IMG/VR virus record: IMGVR_UViG_3300030107_004877
Location: 1-22,727 of that record
Length of the DNA: 22,727 nt
Strand: one strand, 5' to 3'
Source of the DNA: a virus
Part shown: positions 850 to 19,825 of the stretch, piece after piece
How positions within the stretch are numbered: the stretch's first letter is position 1
Layout of the letters: each line of letters starts with the position of its first letter
Translations under genes and position numbers: made by a program
Notes under the pieces: generated by a model
Told to the model about the DNA's origin: nothing
Databases searched by the model: none
Seen by the model: the letters and a program-made list of their open reading frames with translations, nothing else

Positions 850-2558
850 TTTTATTTGAAAATATATCTTGGAAGAATTTTTTATCTACTGGTAATACTC
901 CAACATGCGTCTGTCTTAATGAAAATGATACCACTTTAATTGTAGGTCAAAATGGAGCAGGTAAGTCAACTATTCTCGATGCTTTAACTTTTGTCCTTTA
1001 TGGAAAATCTTTTCGTAGAATTAATAAATCTCAACTTATTAATAGTTCTAATGAAAAGGATTGTTTAGTTGACATTGAATTTTCTATAAGTGGAGTTAAA
1101 TGGAAAATTATAAGAGGAATAAAACCTAATATTTTTAAAATTTATAGAAATGGTGAAGAATTAGATCAATCTCATTCTGCTCTAGATCAACAGAAATGGT
1201 TAGAGCAAAGTGTTCTTAAGATGAATTATAAATCTTTCACTCAGATTGTAATTTTGGGAAGTAGTACCTTCGTCCCATTCATGCAATTGCCACCAGGGAG
1301 TAGAAGAGAAGTGGTGGAAGACTTATTGGATATTAAAATATTTTCATCTATGAATGTTTTAATTAAAGAAAAGATAAGAGGAGTAAGAGAAGAAATTAGA
1401 ACTCTAGATTTGAAGAAAGAATCTCTTAAAGATAAAGTAGAGATGCAAAAGACTTTTATTGAAGAAGTAGAGAATAGAGGTAAGAAAAATATAAAAGAAA
1501 AGAATGATAAGATTAAAACTTTAGATATAGAAGTTGATACTTGTATGGAAAGAAATAATCTTACAGAAGTGGATATTTCGGACCTTATAGAGAAGCAAGA
1601 AAAGGTAACTGGAGCAGGAGAGAAGTTGGTAAAACTAAACAATTTAAAAGGAAAAATCTCTCAAAAAGTAACTACCATTACCAAAGAGCATAAGTTTTTC
1701 ACAGAAAATAAGGTTTGTCCTACATGTACACAGGATATTGAGGAGGATGTTAGAATAAATAAAGTTGCTGACGCTCAATCTAGAGCAAAGGAGTTGCAAT
1801 CTGGTTATAAAGAACTAGAAGAAGCAATTAAAACAGAGGAAGAGCGAGAGCGTCACTTTACAAATTTATCTAAGGAGATTACTACATTAACGCATGGCAT
1901 TTCTAAAAACAATACTCAGATCTCTGGATGTCAACGTCAAATCCGGGATTTGGAATCGGAAATTCAGAAACTTACCGACCAACTTGCAAATAGAAATACT
2001 GAGCATGAGAAGTTAGAATCTTTTAGAGATAGTCTTCAAGATACTTATCAGAAATTATCTGAAAAGAAAGAGACTATTTCTTACTATGATTTTGCTTATG
2101 GACTTCTGAAAGATGGAGGAGTCAAGGCAAGCATAGTTAAAAAATATTTACCTTTGATTAATCAGCAAGTTAACAAGTACTTGCAGATTATGGACTTTTA
2201 TATTAATTTTAAATTGGATGAGGAGTTTAATGAGACTGTAGAGTCTCCTATCCATGAAGATTTTTCATATGCTTCTTTTAGTGAAGGTGAAAAGTCTAGA
2301 ATTGATTTAGCACTAATTTTTGCTTGGCGAGAAGTTGCAAGATATAAAAATTCTGTTAATACTAACTTGATGTTATTTGATGAAGTTTTTGATTCTTCAC
2401 TTGATGGTTACGGAACAGATGAGTTTATGAAGATTATTAGATTTATTGTAAAGGATGCTAATATTTTTGTTATCTCCCATAAAGAATCTCTACATGATAA
2501 GTTTGCAAAGTTATTAAGATTTGAAAAAGTAAAAGGGTTTAGTAGGATGTTAAGTTAA
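846..2558 (+). CDS. gp46: Recombination endonuclease subunit gp46 (Rad50/SbcC-like ATPase)
   Basis: This 570-aa protein is close to the 560 aa of T4 gp46 and has every Rad50-type landmark. The Walker A motif GQNGAGKST is at residues 34-42. A long charged coiled coil (about 170-430) is split by a CPTC zinc hook at C291/C294. The ABC signature FSEGEKS is at 478-484, Walker B LMLFDE ends at D512-E513, and an H-loop VISHKES lies near the C-terminus. With gp47 it forms the SMC-like nuclease that processes DNA ends and helps degrade host DNA. The ATG overlaps the preceding stop as ATGA, and the stop overlaps the next start as TAATG. No missing residues are seen. Confidence 0.96.
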   Translation: MILFENISWKNFLSTGNTPTCVCLNENDTTLIVGQNGAGKSTILDALTFVLYGKSFRRINKSQLINSSNEKDCLVDIEFSISGVKWKIIRGIKPNIFKIYRNGEELDQSHSALDQQKWLEQSVLKMNYKSFTQIVILGSSTFVPFMQLPPGSRREVVEDLLDIKIFSSMNVLIKEKIRGVREEIRTLDLKKESLKDKVEMQKTFIEEVENRGKKNIKEKNDKIKTLDIEVDTCMERNNLTEVDISDLIEKQEKVTGAGEKLVKLNNLKGKISQKVTTITKEHKFFTENKVCPTCTQDIEEDVRINKVADAQSRAKELQSGYKELEEAIKTEEERERHFTNLSKEITTLTHGISKNNTQISGCQRQIRDLESEIQKLTDQLANRNTEHEKLESFRDSLQDTYQKLSEKKETISYYDFAYGLLKDGGVKASIVKKYLPLINQQVNKYLQIMDFYINFKLDEEFNETVESPIHEDFSYASFSEGEKSRIDLALIFAWREVARYKNSVNTNLMLFDEVFDSSLDGYGTDEFMKIIRFIVKDANIFVISHKESLHDKFAKLLRFEKVKGFSRMLS

Positions 2559-3190
2559 TGGCGGTATTTAAACATTTAGACACTGGTAAAAAATTTCTTT
2601 TTGTTCATATACCTAGAACAGGAGGAAGATTTATTGAATCTAATTTAGAATCAAGGGGATGGAGATGTGAACCTATAGAGTATTGTGGTATTCCTCACTA
2701 TAATCATTCTTTTATAGATGATTGTGAGATTACTCATTTTCCTAGAACTTTGTATGAGAAATATTGCAATGCAGAGGATATTCCTCATATTTCAATTATT
2801 AGAAATCCCATAGATAGATTTTTTTCATTATCCATTTATTTGACAGAGGCTTATGGTAGGAACATTCAGGAGGATGCTGAAGATGAAGATCAACTTAACG
2901 AGATGTTGAATGCTTTTCCTCTTCCAGAGTCTTTGGGGTGGTGGAGATCACAAGTAGATTATCTTTCAGATAAAACGAAGATTTGGAAATTTGAAGATGG
3001 ATTAGGAAGAAAGTTTTCTAAGTGGTTTAGTGGTATATTAGGAGTTAAATTTCAAACTGATGTTTTTATGTATTACCCTTCTAATAAAAGGGAGGGAGTT
3101 ACTCAACTTCGGAGAACTGATAAACTTATAGATAATATTAAAAAAATTTTTAGTAAAGATATAGAACAACTTTATCCTGAATTGATATGA
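2558..3190 (+). CDS. Sulfotransferase-like protein, copy 1
   Basis: This 210-aa protein has the two hallmarks of the PAPS-dependent sulfotransferase fold. A 5'-phosphosulfate loop FVHIPRTGGRF is at residues 15-25 (family pattern [IV]-P-K/R-T-G-G). A 3'-phosphate-binding segment SIIRNPIDRFFS is at 79-90, with R82 and S90 in the expected places. These enzymes move a sulfuryl group from PAPS to a hydroxyl of a sugar, lipid or protein; the acceptor cannot be told here. No signal peptide or membrane segment is visible, so it is probably cytoplasmic. It starts at ATG 2558, overlapping the gp46 stop by one base. A paralog with almost the same first 25 residues lies at 3339. The family call is good; the activity is inferred. 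Confidence 0.75.
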   Translation: MAVFKHLDTGKKFLFVHIPRTGGRFIESNLESRGWRCEPIEYCGIPHYNHSFIDDCEITHFPRTLYEKYCNAEDIPHISIIRNPIDRFFSLSIYLTEAYGRNIQEDAEDEDQLNEMLNAFPLPESLGWWRSQVDYLSDKTKIWKFEDGLGRKFSKWFSGILGVKFQTDVFMYYPSNKREGVTQLRRTDKLIDNIKKIFSKDIEQLYPELI

Positions 3191-3339
3191 TGGCAAGTGC
3201 CAAACAATACAAGGGTCAACCTCAAAAGGATTGGACTCAGAAGCAATGGTTACAACATGCGTGGGTTCAATCTCATAATCCTTGGATTGCAGAGGATGAT
3301 AGAGAGTATTGGAAAGATAAAATTAAGGAGTTGATGTAA
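3187..3339 (+). CDS. Small hypothetical protein between the sulfotransferase paralogs
   Basis: This 50-aa ORF opens with two consecutive ATG codons (3187 and 3190) overlapping the upstream stop, and its TAA shares a base with the next ATG at 3339. This perfect packing is the main evidence that it is a gene. The product is hydrophilic and tryptophan-rich (five Trp), with a KxWxxHAWxQSHNPW core. I recognise no family and no function. Its place between two paralogs suggests that the duplication carried, or later received, this small gene. Confidence 0.6.
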   Translation: MMASAKQYKGQPQKDWTQKQWLQHAWVQSHNPWIAEDDREYWKDKIKELM

Positions 3340-4055
3340 TGGCAGTATTTAAGCATGTAGACAGTGGAAAGAGATTTCTTTTTGTACACATTCCTAGGAC
3401 TGCTGGTAGATTTGTAGAACAGAATTTAGAAGCACAGGGGTGGGAATGGGAAAAGATTGATGAAAAAATAAAGTTAAGTCGTCGTCATGATGAATCAAAA
3501 GTAAGAATGTATGATAGTGTTGATGGAATAGAAATAGCTCATTTCCATAAAGAATACTATGAAAAGTATTTGGAGGTAAAAGATATTCCCCATGTTTCTA
3601 TTGTTAGAAATCCTATTGATAGATTTATTTCAGCATCAATTTGGTTGACAAGACTTTATGGTGACGAGATTCAAGAATCAATGGAAGATTCAGTAATGTT
3701 TAATTCAATGCTTTTTAATTTTCCTATGCCAGAATCTGTAAATTGGTATAGACCAATGGTAGACTTTATGTCAGATAAAACTGAGATATGGAAGTTTGAA
3801 GATGGTATGGGAAATAAGTTTTCCAATTGGATAAGTGGCATAGTGGGGGTAGACATCCATATGGATCAGTACTTAGAATATAGAACGGATCCTAGGATGA
3901 GAGAAGAAAGATCTGATAGTAGATTAAAAAAGACAGATGCTCTTATAGATAATCTTAGGGTTTTTTATAGGAAGGATTTAAACAAATTCTATCAAGACAA
4001 TGAAAGTACCAAATTGGATTCATCACTCCAAAAAGGAGAGAAAACGAAAACTTAG
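3339..4055 (+). CDS. Sulfotransferase-like protein, copy 2
   Basis: This 238-aa paralog of the 2558-3190 product has an N-terminus (MAVFKHVDSGKRFLFVHIPR) that matches copy 1 with a few conservative changes. The PAPS loop is HIPRTAG (residues 17-23), with Ala replacing the second Gly position of copy 1. The 3'-phosphate segment SIVRNPIDRFIS is at 87-98. The middle carries an insert of about 8-10 residues (around 43-60) relative to copy 1, and the C-terminal tail is longer and lysine-rich. The family suggests PAPS-dependent sulfation of an unknown acceptor. The start overlaps the preceding stop (TAATG). The pair arose by tandem duplication and has diverged considerably. Confidence 0.75.
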   Translation: MAVFKHVDSGKRFLFVHIPRTAGRFVEQNLEAQGWEWEKIDEKIKLSRRHDESKVRMYDSVDGIEIAHFHKEYYEKYLEVKDIPHVSIVRNPIDRFISASIWLTRLYGDEIQESMEDSVMFNSMLFNFPMPESVNWYRPMVDFMSDKTEIWKFEDGMGNKFSNWISGIVGVDIHMDQYLEYRTDPRMREERSDSRLKKTDALIDNLRVFYRKDLNKFYQDNESTKLDSSLQKGEKTKT

Positions 4056-4134: not shown

Positions 4135-4156
4135 ACTCAGTTTGTTAAGAAATAAA

Positions 4157-4954
4157 ATGACCTCTTTGATTGACCCAAAAAAGTATAGTGAGACTGTTGA
4201 CCTATTGAGGTCATTTTTTTTGTCTAAAAATTTCCTTGAAGTCCACACACAGAATCGTTTAAGCATCCTTGCTGCATGTGAAGATCCAGAAACAGTAGCA
4301 ACCTATGAATACAATGGTCAGATTTGGCCATTACCACAGACTGGACAAATGTGGTTGGAATATGAACTTCTTTCTAATCCTTCAGCAGAAGGATTTTTTT
4401 GTGTCTCCACTTCATATAGGGCAGAACCAAACCCTGTAGAAGGAAGACATGAAACTATCTTCCCTATGTTTGAGTTTGAAATGAAGGGAGGTGTAAAAGA
4501 ACTAGAAGAAATGGAAGTGGAGTTGTGTGAATGGTTAGGAATACCATTAGACACAATTAAGATTAAAAAGTATGATGACTGGGCAGACAATTATAAGGTA
4601 CGTGAGTTAGATCATGGACATGAATCTGCCATAGGTCGTGGGATGATTACTCATTTCCCTGAATGGACATCACCTTTTTGGAATATGGCAAGGAATAATG
4701 ATGGAACCAGTAAGAAGATTGATGTGATCCTAGGGGGTATGGAAACCATTGGTAGTGCAGAACGCAGTACTGATAAGGAACAGATGCGTAACACTTTCCA
4801 TACTATTTCAGATGGTGGATATGCTGAACTACTCTACAAATTATTCGGAAAGGAAAGAGTGGAGAAAGAACTTGAAGAGTTCCTCTCCTTTGATTTCTTC
4901 CCTAGAAGTGGTGGAGGGATAGGGATGCAACGTCTAATGACAGCCCTTTCATAG
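4157..4954 (+). CDS. Free-standing class II aminoacyl-tRNA synthetase core (AsnRS/AspRS type; asparagine synthetase-like)
   Basis: This 265-aa protein consists only of a class II synthetase catalytic domain of the Asp/Asn/Lys subgroup. A motif 1-like helix-strand (LRSFFLSKNFLEVHTQ) is at 17-32. Motif 2 has SYRAE at 86-90 and GRHETIFPMFEFE at 96-108. The segment GGMETIGSAERS (193-204) corresponds to the AsnRS/AspRS strand before motif 3, and motif 3 is GGGIGMQRL at 252-260 with R259. The N-terminal OB-fold anticodon-binding domain (about 100 aa) is absent. Family knowledge offers two readings: an AsnRS-derived ammonia-dependent asparagine synthetase, as known in archaea, or a tRNA-acting enzyme without anticodon recognition. 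ATG 4157 is preferred over TTG 4142. A tRNA with GUU anticodon starts 10 bases downstream. Codon use is somewhat less T-ending than in neighbouring genes. Confidence 0.8.
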   Translation: MTSLIDPKKYSETVDLLRSFFLSKNFLEVHTQNRLSILAACEDPETVATYEYNGQIWPLPQTGQMWLEYELLSNPSAEGFFCVSTSYRAEPNPVEGRHETIFPMFEFEMKGGVKELEEMEVELCEWLGIPLDTIKIKKYDDWADNYKVRELDHGHESAIGRGMITHFPEWTSPFWNMARNNDGTSKKIDVILGGMETIGSAERSTDKEQMRNTFHTISDGGYAELLYKLFGKERVEKELEEFLSFDFFPRSGGGIGMQRLMTALS

Positions 4955-4963
4955 GGCATTCAT

Positions 4964-5049
4964 TGTGAGGTGACGAAACTGGTAAACGTGTCAGTCTGTT
5001 TAACTGATGTTCCTGGCGGGACTTGTAGGTTCGACTCCTACCCTCACAG
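4964..5049 (+). tRNA. tRNA with GUU (Asn) anticodon and long variable arm
   Basis: An 86-base cloverleaf can be drawn. The acceptor TGTGAGG (4964-4970) pairs perfectly with CCTCACA (5042-5048), and the discriminator is G5049. The D arm is ACG/CGT with GG in the loop. The anticodon stem TCAGT/ACTGA (4991-4995, 5003-5007) closes the loop CTGTTTA, with anticodon GTT at 4998-5000. The variable arm GTTCC-TGGC-GGGAC (5009-5022) is five pairs long. The T arm GTAGG/CCTAC has loop TTCGACT, and CCA is not encoded. GUU, U1-A72 and G73 agree with bacterial tRNA-Asn, but tRNA-Asn normally has a short variable loop; the long arm belongs to Ser/Leu/Tyr tRNAs. Base 37 is T instead of the usual purine. The RNA call is strong; the amino acid is uncertain. 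Confidence 0.85.
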
Positions 5050-5126
5050 TTTAAAAAAAATATTTAGGTATAAGTTCGTAGGCAATAATTTTTGTAAAAT
5101 ATAAGTAATATATTGGTATTTCCTGA

Positions 5127-5801: not shown

Positions 5802-7913
5802 ATGGTCAACTACGAGATTAAATCCCAACTTGCTAAGTTGCTTGCAACTGAAGATTTGGTAGTTGAACATAAGAATATTTCTACTGCTCAATTTAATGTT
5901 GAGTCCAGGGTTCTTACTTTACCTTTATGGAAAAAGGCTACTAATATTGTTTATGATTTGTTAGTTGGTCATGAAGTTGGACATGCACTTTATACTCCCA
6001 ATAGATGGGGGTTTAAAATTCCACAACAATTTGTTAATGTTGTGGAGGATGCACGTATTGATAAATTAATGAAGCGTAAGTATCCAGGACTTTCAAAAAC
6101 TTTTTATTATGGTTATCAGGAGTTAAATGACAATGATTTCTTTGACATTGATGGTGAAGATCTTACTACTCTTAATCTTGCTGATAGGGGTAATTTATAT
6201 TTCAAGGTGGGTAACTTCGTTGATATATCTTTTTCAACTGTTGAAAAGAAGATTATCTCGTTAATAGAATCTTGTGAAACTTTTGATGATACTCTTGTCG
6301 CTGCAGCAAAACTTTATGAGTATTGTAAGGAAGAAGTAAAACAGAAGGAAAAGAGTGTAGAAGTTATATCTAATAAAGATATATCTCCTGATCCAGATCA
6401 AGGTAATGAAACTTTTGAAGAAGAATTTTTTGATGAAGGATATCAGGATGAGGAATTAAGTGAGGGAGAGATAGAAAAGATAATAGAAAATAAAGGTGCT
6501 TCTAATTCATCACCAGAACCTGAAGTCTCAACTGATACTGCTTTTCATGAAAGAACTCAAGAGTTAAATGATTTTAGACAACATAGGGAAAATGTATACC
6601 TAGAACTTCCTAAGCTTATTTTAGATAATGTAATTGCATCTAATTCTGAAATTCATAGTGTTTTAGAAGAAAGTTGGAAGACTCAATCTATTCCTATGGA
6701 GCAAGAAGATCCTTATACTGGAAGGAAGGTACTTTATAAAGCTGATTTTGATTATGTGGATGAAGAATATAATGAATTTAAGAATAATGCTAAGAAAGAA
6801 GTAAATTATTTGGTAAAGGAATTTGAATCTAAAAAAGCAGCAGATTCATATGCCCGTGCTGCTACTTCTAAAACTGGAATTTTAGATTGTTCTAAACTTC
6901 ATACTTATAAGTATAATGAAGATCTTTTTAGAAAAGTAACTACTCTAGCTGATGGTAAAAATCATGGATTAATATTCATGTTGGATTGGTCTGGATCAAT
7001 GCATTATACTATGCATGATACTATTAAACAGTTATTCAATCTTATATGGTTTTGTAATAAAGTTAATATTCCTTTTGAGGTTTATGCTTTTACTAATGGT
7101 TATGAGAACTGGAAAGAAGGGAACTCTCTCCCTAGAATGGAAAAAGAAGAATATAAGTTAGTTGTAAATGAAGATTTTACATTAATGAATTTTCTTACTA
7201 GTAAGGTAAGTAAAAATGTATTAGAAAAGCAAATGAAATCTTTATGGAGGGTAGTGTATGCTTTTAAAGAATATGGAGTACAATATACTCTTCCTGGGCA
7301 ATTTCATTTAGGTGGAACTCCTTTTAATGAAGCTTTAATTTCTTTACATCAAATCATTCCTCATTTTCAAAAGGAAACTAAAATACAAAAAGTCCAGTGT
7401 ATACTTTTAACAGATGGAGAAGCAAATGTTTTACCTTATCATAAATGGGTAAGCCGGGCTTGGGAAATGGAACCTTTTATGGGATGTCGTAATATTCATC
7501 CTCAATCTTCCTATATTCGTAATCGTAAAACTGGACATATCTATCAAGTTGATTATCAATTTTGGAAGTTTGGTGAAATTCTTTTAAAAGATTTAAAACA
7601 ATCTTTTCCTGATACTAATTTTATTGGAATTAGATTAGTTTCTAATAGGGATTTTGGATCTTTTATTCGTAGATATCAACCTCTAGATGATAAAGAAATG
7701 AGACAAGCTAGAAGAGAAAAGTCTTATAACATTACCACTGGGGGATATGATTCTTATTTTGTAATGAATGCTTCTTCTTTATCTTCTGATGATTCATTTG
7801 AGGTGGAAGAGGATGCATCTAAAGCAAGGATTAGAAATGCTTTTTCTAAAAGTCTTAAATCTAAAGCGTTAAATAAAAAAGTCTTAAGTAAGTTTATGGA
7901 TTTGGTATGTTGA
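5802..7913 (+). CDS. HExxH metallopeptidase-like and VWA (CobT-like) protein
   Basis: This 703-aa protein has two recognisable parts. Near the N-terminus a zincin helix GHEVGHAL gives H57-E58-x-x-H61, followed by NVVEDARIDKLMKRKYP (79-95), where E82 or D83 may be the third ligand, as in other VWA-linked peptidases of this type. An acidic, low-complexity linker spans about 180-250. A von Willebrand factor A domain begins at FMLDWSGSM with the MIDAS motif D395-x-S397-x-S399; later LLTDGEAN fits the VWA fold. A CobS-type AAA+ ATPase follows after 79 bases, matching the MoxR/VWA and CobS/CobT partnership. In cyanophages such a gene is often named peptidase or CobT-like. No cobaltochelatase CobN is seen, so a role in cobalamin is doubtful. 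Whether it cleaves peptides is unknown. Confidence 0.85.
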   Translation: MVNYEIKSQLAKLLATEDLVVEHKNISTAQFNVESRVLTLPLWKKATNIVYDLLVGHEVGHALYTPNRWGFKIPQQFVNVVEDARIDKLMKRKYPGLSKTFYYGYQELNDNDFFDIDGEDLTTLNLADRGNLYFKVGNFVDISFSTVEKKIISLIESCETFDDTLVAAAKLYEYCKEEVKQKEKSVEVISNKDISPDPDQGNETFEEEFFDEGYQDEELSEGEIEKIIENKGASNSSPEPEVSTDTAFHERTQELNDFRQHRENVYLELPKLILDNVIASNSEIHSVLEESWKTQSIPMEQEDPYTGRKVLYKADFDYVDEEYNEFKNNAKKEVNYLVKEFESKKAADSYARAATSKTGILDCSKLHTYKYNEDLFRKVTTLADGKNHGLIFMLDWSGSMHYTMHDTIKQLFNLIWFCNKVNIPFEVYAFTNGYENWKEGNSLPRMEKEEYKLVVNEDFTLMNFLTSKVSKNVLEKQMKSLWRVVYAFKEYGVQYTLPGQFHLGGTPFNEALISLHQIIPHFQKETKIQKVQCILLTDGEANVLPYHKWVSRAWEMEPFMGCRNIHPQSSYIRNRKTGHIYQVDYQFWKFGEILLKDLKQSFPDTNFIGIRLVSNRDFGSFIRRYQPLDDKEMRQARREKSYNITTGGYDSYFVMNASSLSSDDSFEVEEDASKARIRNAFSKSLKSKALNKKVLSKFMDLVC

Positions 7914-17434: not shown

Positions 17435-19825
17435 TTGAAAAATAATCTTTATAATGGTATCAGTGAAAGACTTTTCTTTACTTTAGGTAAACGCCCAGAA
17501 ATTGCTACGACCCATGATTTTTATATGGCATTGAGTTATGCTGTGAGAGATCAGATGATGACCTATTGGTTAGATAGTAAAAAAGAAGTTGATAAGGAAA
17601 TTGCTTATCTTTCAGCAGAATTTTTAATAGGACCTCAACTTAATAATAATTTAGTTAATTTGGGTATCAGGGAAGAAGCGCAAGAAGCATTAAAGGAATA
17701 TGGATATACTTTAGATCAGATTTTAGATGTAGCAGAGGAACCTGGACTTGGTAATGGTGGTCTAGGACGTCTGGCTGCTTGTTATATGGAGTCTCTAGCA
17801 AGTCTTAAAGTACCTGCTACTGGATATGGTATAAGATATAAGTACGGCATCTTTAAGCAGTTAATTAAGGACAATCAGCAGATTGAGATTACTGATAATT
17901 GGCTACATGGAGAATGGCCATGGGAATTATGTCAACCTGATGAGTCTGTATTTGTAGGATTTGGTGGTAGAGTTGAAAATTATGTATCAGATAGAGGTAA
18001 TTATAGAGTAAGGTGGGTTCCTGAGGAGCAAGTGGTTGCTGTTCCTTATGATGTATTGCAATTAGGATATAGAGTTAATAGTTGTAATAGGTTGAGATTG
18101 TGGAGAGCAGATGCCACAGAAACCTTTGACTTCTATGCATTTAATATTGGTGATTACCTTGGTTCAGTAGAACAAAGTGTTTCATCTGAGACTATTTCTA
18201 AGGTATTGTATCCCAATGATGGTACAGATCAAGGAAAGACTTTAAGGTTGAAGCAGCAGTATTTCTTTGTAAGTGCTTCCCTTCAGGATATGATGAATAG
18301 TTTGGATAAGAGGGGATATGATATAGAAGATTTTCCCCATCATTGGCAAGTGCAATTAAATGATACTCATCCATCTATTGCAGTAGCAGAATTGATGAGA
18401 CTTCTTGTGGATGAAAGGCATATAGAGTGGGAAGATGCATGGGAGATAACCACTAAGTCTATTGCTTATACTAATCATACTCTTCTACCAGAGGCATTGG
18501 AGAAGTGGGATCTCAAACTCTTTAAGACTTTACTTCCTCGTCACATGGAGATTATCTATGAGATTAATCGTAGATTCCTTCAAGTAGTAAGACTTAATTA
18601 TCCTGGAGATGATTCCATTTTAGAAAAGTTATCCATTATTGATGAGAATGGTGGTAAGTCTGTGCGTATGGCACACCTTGCAACTGTAGGTTCTCATCAT
18701 GTAAATGGTGTTGCTGCATTACATTCTGAGTTAATTAAGACTCAATTGATGCCAGAGTTTTATGATTTATGGCCACATAAGTTTACTAATGTGACTAATG
18801 GTGTCACCCCAAGAAGATGGGTAGCATCTGCCAATCCTGCATTAGCAGAAGTTCTTGATGAATATGTTGGTATGGATTGGATTACTCATATGGATTCTCT
18901 GAGGAAATTAGAAAGTAGGAGAATGGAACCAGAACTTCTAGAAAAAATTGCAAGTACTAAAATTATTGGAAAGCATCATCTTGCTACTTATATTTTTGAT
19001 ACTTTGGGGGTATCAGTAGATCCTTCTAGTATGTTCGATGTACAGGTTAAGAGAATTCATGAGTATAAGAGACAACATTTACTTGCTCTTTGGGTTATAG
19101 CACAATATCTTCGTATAAAGAATGGACATGATATAGTTCCGAGGACTGTAATCTTTGGTGGCAAAGCAGCTCCTGGATATTATATGGCTAAGATGATAGT
19201 TCAATTTATTTGTCATATTGCAGATGTGGTTAATAATGATCCTGATATGGATGGTAAGTTACGTGTAATATTCTTACCAAACTATAGTGTCAAGTTAGGT
19301 GAACTTGTCTATCCTGCTGCTGATCTTTCTGAACAGATATCAACTGCTGGTAAAGAAGCATCTGGTACAGGGAACATGAAGTTTCAAATGAATGGTGCTG
19401 TTACTATAGGAACTCTTGATGGTGCTAATGTTGAGATACGTGATTTAGTGGGTGAGGAGAATTTCTTCTTGTTTGGTAATGATGAAACTGGTATAGCAAA
19501 ACTATGGAAAGATGGTTATAATCCTCAACATCACATATCTGAGGAACTGTGGGAAGTAATTCACCTTGTTAGGGGTGGTCACTTTAGTCATGGTGATCGT
19601 AATATGTTTGAACCTTTAATAAGTAATCTTTTGAATCATGATCCTTTCTGTGTATTGGCAGATTTTTCTGATTACTTAGATGCTCAGGATAGGGTAAGTA
19701 GTGCATGGAAAGATAGAGATAGTTGGAATAGAATGTCTCTTTTAAATATTGCTAGGTCTGGGTTCTTCTCTTCAGATAGATCTATTAGGGATTACTGTAA
19801 TAAAATATGGGGTATTCCCCACTGA
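17435..19825 (+). CDS. glgP: Glycogen/alpha-glucan phosphorylase
   Basis: This 796-aa protein spans the whole glycogen phosphorylase family (about 800-840 aa). Family blocks in order are YLSAEFLIGPQLNNNL, EPGLGNGGLGRLAACYMES, GYGIRYKYGIFKQ, WEYTNHT-like IAYTNHTLLPEALEKW, the FDVQVKRIHEYKRQ phosphate/PLP region, and EASGTGNMKFQMNGAVTIGT with the PLP-binding lysine at K649, then LDGANVEI. It splits alpha-1,4-glucans with phosphate to give glucose-1-phosphate. The start is TTG 17435, two bases after regA; no upstream ATG fits and the next in-frame Met is inside the conserved region. No frameshift is seen, so the gene looks functional. It is not a T4 core gene, and codon use matches its AT-rich neighbours, so it is well ameliorated. 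It probably mobilises host glycogen during infection. Confidence 0.96.
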   Translation: MKNNLYNGISERLFFTLGKRPEIATTHDFYMALSYAVRDQMMTYWLDSKKEVDKEIAYLSAEFLIGPQLNNNLVNLGIREEAQEALKEYGYTLDQILDVAEEPGLGNGGLGRLAACYMESLASLKVPATGYGIRYKYGIFKQLIKDNQQIEITDNWLHGEWPWELCQPDESVFVGFGGRVENYVSDRGNYRVRWVPEEQVVAVPYDVLQLGYRVNSCNRLRLWRADATETFDFYAFNIGDYLGSVEQSVSSETISKVLYPNDGTDQGKTLRLKQQYFFVSASLQDMMNSLDKRGYDIEDFPHHWQVQLNDTHPSIAVAELMRLLVDERHIEWEDAWEITTKSIAYTNHTLLPEALEKWDLKLFKTLLPRHMEIIYEINRRFLQVVRLNYPGDDSILEKLSIIDENGGKSVRMAHLATVGSHHVNGVAALHSELIKTQLMPEFYDLWPHKFTNVTNGVTPRRWVASANPALAEVLDEYVGMDWITHMDSLRKLESRRMEPELLEKIASTKIIGKHHLATYIFDTLGVSVDPSSMFDVQVKRIHEYKRQHLLALWVIAQYLRIKNGHDIVPRTVIFGGKAAPGYYMAKMIVQFICHIADVVNNDPDMDGKLRVIFLPNYSVKLGELVYPAADLSEQISTAGKEASGTGNMKFQMNGAVTIGTLDGANVEIRDLVGEENFFLFGNDETGIAKLWKDGYNPQHHISEELWEVIHLVRGGHFSHGDRNMFEPLISNLLNHDPFCVLADFSDYLDAQDRVSSAWKDRDSWNRMSLLNIARSGFFSSDRSIRDYCNKIWGIPH

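Follow-up and report, generated by a model that had tools for sequence, protein, structure and literature searches.

A long-arm tRNA with an asparagine anticodon and an adjoining AsnRS-type enzyme in marine viral contigs, with a possible role in pyrimidine supply

The window, as we call the whole stretch of viral DNA analysed here (22,727 nucleotides), carries an 86-nt tRNA that joins the anticodon and acceptor end of a tRNA-Asn to the long variable arm of a class II tRNA. Just upstream lies a gene for a stand-alone catalytic core of the asparaginyl-tRNA synthetase (AsnRS) type. The RNA is conserved and adjoins the enzyme in viral contigs, and the enzyme's relatives are linked with pyrimidine genes in cells and in phages. 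No account of such a pair was found in the open-licence papers searched, and it appears to be an undescribed combination of synthetase-like enzyme and tRNA that is common in marine viral contigs. The explanation that we prefer, and to which we would give a little less than an even chance, is that the RNA is the dedicated partner of this AsnRS-derived enzyme in a pyrimidine-supply cassette, is charged by it with asparagine, and serves as a carrier, source or sensor more than as a decoder. The features of the window on which the argument turns are as follows.

4142..4954, + strand: AsnRS-type class II catalytic core, 270 aa (PF00152, 5e-15; phrog_29758, 2.7e-162; AF2 pLDDT 91.7; top fold match AsnRS, Z 25.6)
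4955..4963, + strand: 9-nt spacer between the enzyme stop codon and the tRNA (7-11 nt in 80/80 full copies)
4964..5049, + strand: long-arm tRNA, 86 nt, with Asn anticodon and Asn-type acceptor end on a tRNA-Leu-like body (ARAGORN; Rfam RF00005, 51.3 bits; covariation in 23 homologs)
4964..4970, + strand: 5' strand of the acceptor stem, with U1 (U1-A72 in 22/22 scorable sequences; U1 in 176/176 intact stems among the matches listed)
4996..5002, + strand: anticodon loop CUGUUUA, with GUU at 4998-5000 and U37 at 5001 (GUUU at 34-37 in 54/54 distinct enzyme-selected homologs; U37 in 0/125 other tRNAs)
5009..5022, + strand: variable arm, a 5-bp stem GTTCC/GGGAC with loop TGGC (covarying helix 4; 61 distinct regions, all with a stem of 2-11 pairs)
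5042..5049, + strand: 3' strand of the acceptor stem (A72) and discriminator G73, with CCA unencoded here (G73 in 54/54 distinct homologs and in 178/178 among the matches listed)

A tRNA of mixed identity

ARAGORN predicts a tRNA-Asn(gtt) at 4963-5050, and Rfam RF00005 scores 4964-5049 well above its gathering threshold of 29 bits, with the variable arm as an insertion; no better fold with a different anticodon was found for this segment. Read from the sequence, the acceptor stem (4964-4970/5042-5048) makes 7/7 pairs, including U1-A72, and is followed by G73 at 5049; the anticodon loop runs C4996 T4997 G4998 T4999 T5000 T5001 A5002, and five pairs (5009-5013/5018-5022) form the variable-arm helix. 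A preliminary description of the window had drawn this same tRNA, with GUU, U1-A72, G73 and U37, and had pointed to the clash between its Asn features and its class II arm. Its anatomy holds and so does the contradiction, the arm being real and base-paired; what it overlooked is the synthetase-like gene upstream.

Homologs were gathered in two ways. Selection by the enzyme gave 86 loci (85 homolog loci plus the window), with some phages represented more than once (both L059 and L081 come from P-SSM7). Two scans in which the tRNA pattern was the sole criterion gave at least 187 loci; requiring GTTT, they offer no fresh test of U37. The 54 distinct enzyme-selected tRNAs all have GUUU at positions 34-37, U1-A72, G73 and full pairing in the acceptor stem (7/7) and the anticodon stem (5/5), and their stems vary by compensation: in intact copies G73 and U1-A72 are invariant, and covariation is seen in the remainder of the acceptor stem. 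C occupies position 33 in 16/80 copies. For the 125 other tRNAs of the fetched loci the corresponding figures are 3/125 with C33 and 0/125 with U37 (99 A, 24 G, 2 C). In a 23-sequence alignment standard pairs fill 98.6% of the paired cells, versus 40-51% in slid controls, two-sided changes occur in 21/25 pairs, and the observed score was reached by 0/500 shuffles. The variable-arm helix shares in this conservation and covariation, being 93.9% paired with two-sided change in 4/5 pairs. Homologs lacking a paired long arm did not turn up: all 61 distinct variable regions among the matches listed, 13-39 nt long, form a stem, with a mean of 5.7 uninterrupted pairs against 0.78 when shuffled.

ARAGORN calls other anticodons in some homologs (Lys(ttt), four-base, two-base), which are misplacements due to the long arms; parsed by hand, all homologs show GUU and an anticodon stem with all five pairs formed. 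The reading of AAAY as a four-base codon by GUUU was considered and put aside, the anticodon loop being one of 7 nt. Action of the queuosine or GluQ type on the anticodon loop was also discounted: it requires a UGU context, which C33 breaks in the 16/80 copies that have it.

The tRNA genes apparently follow two conventions for the 3' end, with a chargeable end kept in both. CCA is encoded in 61/64 scorable contigs of the second tRNA-pattern set, from which it seems that a charged 3' end is needed, and was not found in the common 3' ends of the first set among the matches listed. It is also encoded in five further copies, found in genome bins (L089, L090, L098, L140 and L163). The copy of the last of these, from a Methylophilaceae bin (6077-6167), shows mismatching at its acceptor end, has A as its discriminator base, and is possibly decaying. 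As a separate matter, the annotated tRNA-Asn of P-SSM2 (L082 7825-7910; AY939844.2 164094-164179) lies ~2 kb from the sequence that matches the long-arm tRNA (162082-162172), and the annotation seems to have shifted between versions of the record.

The closest other tRNAs, by covariance model (among the matches listed) and by alignment score, are tRNA-Leu, and the two bases left unpaired behind the variable arm resemble tRNA-Leu as well. The bacterial Asn determinants given in PMC9976931 include G73, G34, U35, U36 and A37. The phage RNA has the GUU anticodon and G73, but 54/54 distinct homologs replace A37 with U37, and in place of the short variable loop of class I all homologs have a paired arm in a region of 13-39 nt, a base-paired long variable arm being the mark of class II. 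The same source places C72 among the bacterial Ser determinants, where the phage RNA has A72, and names G73, invariant here, as a LeuRS antideterminant. Bacterial GatCAB is reported to need U1-A72 on tRNA-Asn (PMC4206432). By these identity rules U37 would weaken recognition by host AsnRS, G73 by LeuRS and A72 by SerRS, and we therefore infer a tRNA that is private from the host synthetases.

The AsnRS-type enzyme and its linkage to the tRNA

The ORF at 4142-4954, which probably starts, going by homologs, with the ATG at 4157, stops 9 nt 5' of the tRNA. Its product has PF00152 (class II tRNA synthetases D, K and N) as sole Pfam domain and falls in PHROG 29758, a group annotated as of unknown function. 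Relatives in Prochlorococcus phages P-SSM7, P-SSM2 and P-SSM5 are labelled 'tRNA ligase', and a 2010 comparison of cyanophage genomes has T4-GC 194, 'tRNA ligase', in two cyanophages (PMC3037559). We reject an RNA ligase identity: there is no RNA ligase domain, and PF00152 is the only Pfam domain present.

The match of the predicted structure (pLDDT 91.7) to AsnRS (Z 25.6, rmsd 2.6, 247 aligned) is followed by matches to AspRS (Z 24.5), archaeal asparagine synthetase (23.3) and EpmA (22.7); since the Foldseek and VIA lists include AspRS, LysRS and EpmA at Z 22-24.5, the fold alone does not name the substrate. The 270-aa model aligns with the catalytic part of human AsnRS (residues 225-528), and in this alignment the N-terminal anticodon-binding domain is absent. 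The family motif QxxQ[LM]xLE (QTGQMWLE) aligns with SSQLYLE of AsnRS, unlike SPQLYKQ of AspRS. Positions invariant in the family include R93, E95, R102, H103, R208 and R264, which we take to be intact residues of motifs 2 and 3. The enzyme misses the curated cut-offs for asnS (TIGR00457; 17.3 vs 342.6 bits) and for archaeal asparagine synthetase A (PRK06462; 21.3 vs 389 bits).

A full tRNA lies 7-11 nt past the enzyme stop codon in 80/86 enzyme-selected loci; four others are cut by the contig end, and two, in huge phages, have no tRNA nearby. Conversely, the enzyme is found less than 600 nt upstream of the tRNA in 173/187 tRNA-selected contigs among the matches listed, the remaining 14 having less than 450 nt of upstream sequence, too short to tell. 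In the testable contigs among these matches the tRNA is never seen without the enzyme. The preliminary description had offered three fates for the RNA, and it is on account of this constant company of an AsnRS-type core that the first, charging with Asn by an unusual route, now looks the best supported.

There are also enzyme genes that lack the tRNA: those of most cellular genomes, and those of phage-like contigs such as L091 and L094. When the huge phages LR756501 and LR756508 were searched for a long-arm GUUU tRNA, a covariance model (R1) gave ordinary tRNAs only, Leu at the top; with the LR756508 protein as query no viral relatives were found. Applied to 17 genomes or bins, the same model exceeded 76 bits, among the matches listed, only for the five copies already linked to an enzyme (the anticodon was checked only in fetched loci), and among the matches listed no such tRNA was found in the 12 searched genomes that have a cellular homolog and no adjacent copy. 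Since cellular homologs have the same conserved pocket and do without such a tRNA, the chemistry of the family need not use tRNA. In the enzyme tree the tRNA-linked members lie in two separate clades among unlinked ones, and comparison of the family revealed no residue near the pocket that separates linked from unlinked members. Two tRNA-linked groups that share their pocket with the rest suggest that the reaction of the phage enzyme is most likely that of the family as a whole, and that the RNA was added to it and is retained by phages.

Pyrimidine genes around the enzyme

A scan of genome contigs gave 114 relatives of the enzyme, of which 80 were kept, from Patescibacteria, Bacteroidota, Rickettsiales-type endosymbionts, Pasteurella atlantica and others. 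The 74 neighbouring ORFs that were scanned contain OMPdecase (8), DHO_dh (7) and Pribosyltran (4). In the order of Aureispira the enzyme is carried by 7/119 genomes; PyrB is present in 101 of the 119 and lacking in 18, among them 7/7 carriers, an exclusion with a probability of ~6e-7 by a hand hypergeometric calculation that ignores kinship and incomplete assemblies. Among 14 carriers CarB is missing in 13, PyrB is above cut-off in one, and normal AsnRS is present in 11, so the enzyme family is not a stand-in for it. PyrC-like genes remain in several carriers, and 114/119 genomes in the order of G003 have matches. A bypass of pyrC alone was considered and dropped, PyrC-like matches being common, also in carriers, and the exclusion of PyrB and CarB firmer. 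TIGR00856 found no match in the 14 carriers, but only 3/14 controls match it. The cellular AsnRS-like core family is, judged on these neighbourhoods and gene inventories, a candidate early pyrimidine enzyme.

Stand-alone AsnRS-like cores were also noted beside pyrD/pyrE/pyrF in L133 (4959-6892), L092, L096, L122, L132 and L135, and the same core family in genomes G003, G004, G005, G006, G007 and G010, mostly without CarB and PyrB. In Patescibacteria (L095, L102, L105, L107, L108, L109, L132, L136 and L167) a tRNA-Gln(TTG) gene is repeatedly found a few kb 3' of the enzyme, and genes like those for DNA polymerase III subunits are among the neighbours; this is probably chromosomal synteny.

Relatives of the P-SSM7 PyrE were found in 14/50,697 phage records at E 1e-5 (a gp23 relative, for comparison, is in more than 2,500), and the six Prochlorococcus phage records with PyrE are exactly the six with the enzyme, representing only two phage lineages. 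In five distinct viral contigs the enzyme has a phage-type PyrE gene on its own strand at a distance of 207-597 nt. A gene for a dihydroorotate-dehydrogenase-like (DHODH-like) protein (PF01180) lies 69 nt upstream of the enzyme in L089, L378, L379, L380 and L414, and ~1 kb downstream of it in L098. Most of the 271 enzyme-bearing viral loci (median 6 kb, many overlapping) show neither gene, and no PyrE was found in the window's 22.7 kb.

Other neighbours deserve a word. In many marine viral contigs (L361, L362, L364, L376, L382, L384, L402, L407, L409, L412, L415, L424, L428 and L429) a gene for a PnrA-like substrate-binding protein (BMP, PF02608), perhaps for nucleoside uptake, occurs some 290-710 nt away from the enzyme. 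In the window the enzyme is closely preceded by two related genes in tandem (2558-3190 and 3339-4055) that match a galactose-3-O-sulfotransferase PHROG; at 17435-19825 the window encodes a full-length glycogen/carbohydrate phosphorylase (PF00343, 1033 bits).

What the pair may do, and its relation to known systems

On the explanation that we prefer, the enzyme, with its catalytic core and Asn-type pocket, most likely aminoacylates the adjacent RNA with asparagine. The RNA would have the body of a tRNA-Leu, remodelled to carry U1-A72, G73 and GUU, and U37, the long arm, A72 and G73 would let host AsnRS, SerRS and LeuRS charge it only poorly and leave the pair largely private. The pair would act in a phage pyrimidine-supply cassette, some phages having PyrE or a DHODH-like enzyme nearby. 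The enzyme family probably supplies dihydroorotate, replacing CarAB/PyrB, with asparagine as a plausible precursor, and the RNA would be the enzyme's asparagine carrier, source or sensor and not mainly a decoder. In an atom mapping of our own, asparagine that is carboxylated on its amino group and activated by ATP could close its ring through the amide and yield dihydroorotate directly; the formation of threonylcarbamoyl-AMP is a precedent for such an activation. A more explicit version, which we hold to be doubtful, makes the RNA a non-decoding aminoacyl carrier: the enzyme would load and unload Asn and, with bicarbonate and ATP, feed dihydroorotate to the DHODH-like enzyme and PyrE, bypassing CarAB, PyrB and PyrC. 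The last of the fates offered by the preliminary description, a non-decoding RNA, gains weight from U37, C33 and the pyrimidine context. There are counterpoints. GUU is kept though the enzyme lacks a domain for binding the anticodon, a pattern that fits an RNA which decodes or is recognised by a host synthetase; we know of no chemical reason for dihydroorotate formation to need Asn-tRNA; and a pyrimidine gene is close by in a minority of viral contigs only, the viral contigs being mostly fragments.

It is the retention of GUU that makes an orthogonal decoding pair the main rival. The AsnRS-type core would charge the long-arm tRNA with Asn for the decoding of AAC/AAU in phage mRNAs, which is possible though somewhat unlikely, as is a use such as sustaining Asn decoding when defence nucleases cut host tRNA-Asn. 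The strictly kept GUU, the Asn-type acceptor end and the obligate AsnRS-type neighbour all fit, and phage tRNAs with altered anticodon loops are described as resisting anticodon nucleases (PMC10264068). It accords poorly with U37 in all copies and C33 in 16/80, both rare in decoding tRNAs, and with the linkage of the enzyme to pyrimidine genes in cells and phages; moreover, P-SSM2 is listed with one tRNA in total (PMC3037559), so that a general supply of codons is improbable.

It is unlikely that the enzyme is a small-molecule pyrimidine enzyme only, and the RNA an ordinary phage Asn tRNA, charged by host AsnRS and travelling with the gene. Cellular relatives work without such a tRNA, the pocket residues do not differ, and G34, U35, U36 and G73 are AsnRS determinants (PMC9976931). 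However, the RNA is never without the enzyme in the 173 testable contigs among the matches listed, the linkage occurs in two clades that lie apart in the enzyme tree, the Asn determinant A37 (PMC9976931) has become U in every copy, and the long arm is kept although a class I tRNA-Asn would suffice.

Less credible still is the idea that the enzyme mRNA carries a tRNA-like element at its 3' end, there for RNase P to cut just past the stop codon or for the enzyme to bind its own message. The fixed spacing of 7-11 nt after the stop codon would suit it, but the spacing exceeds 200 nt in L163 and is about 170 nt in L090, CCA is encoded in many non-cyanophage copies, and the invariant GUUU and intact tRNA core exceed what a processing signal needs. 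Least of all can we credit the remaining proposal of the preliminary description, that host SerRS charges the RNA with Ser through the long arm and G73 and AAC/AAU is recoded: these two features and G2-C71, R4-Y69, C11-G24 and G30-C40 of the window copy do match bacterial Ser determinants (PMC9976931), but A72 and not C72 is present in all intact copies, pairs 2-71, 11-24 and 30-40 are not conserved across homologs, and the body is Leu-like, as are the two bases that stand unpaired behind the variable arm.

The long-arm tRNA breaks the rule that tRNA-Asn is class I, and it may have been recruited into nucleotide making or into a separate, private route for asparagine. Should the pair prove private, genetic code engineering would gain a natural orthogonal system built on a sense anticodon. 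If the link with pyrimidines is true, bacteria without CarB and PyrB would have an early pyrimidine route new to science, which viruses have adopted, possibly with a tRNA used in nucleotide synthesis.

With bacterial tRNA-Asn (GUU) the phage RNA has in common its anticodon, U1-A72 and G73, and it differs in the class II arm, in U37 for A37 (class I tRNA-Asn in the same data have the loop CTGTTAA) and in its Leu-like body. U1-A72 is also shared with the tRNA-dependent Asn synthesis by ND-AspRS and GatCAB (PMC4206432), but neither an amidotransferase nor an AspRS is seen in the phage cassette. Bacterial tRNA-Leu is closest in D-arm, variable-arm base and overall sequence, whereas GUU, U1-A72 and the LeuRS antideterminant G73 set the phage RNA apart from it. 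The enzyme has the catalytic fold, class II motifs and Asn-type pocket motif of asparaginyl-tRNA synthetase, but at ~270 aa it lacks the N-terminal anticodon-binding domain and scores far under the asnS cut-off. With archaeal asparagine synthetase A, which is AsnRS-related (3p8t/3rex), it shares a stand-alone class IIb core of similar length (Z 23.3); it is far under the NCBIfam cut-off for that family and is tied to a tRNA and to pyrimidine genes. PylRS and tRNA-Pyl are a dedicated synthetase/tRNA pair, and there too a synthetase-type enzyme and an odd tRNA, apparently private, are encoded together; the phage pair is set apart from them by a different synthetase subclass, a sense anticodon, its location in phages and its pyrimidine context.
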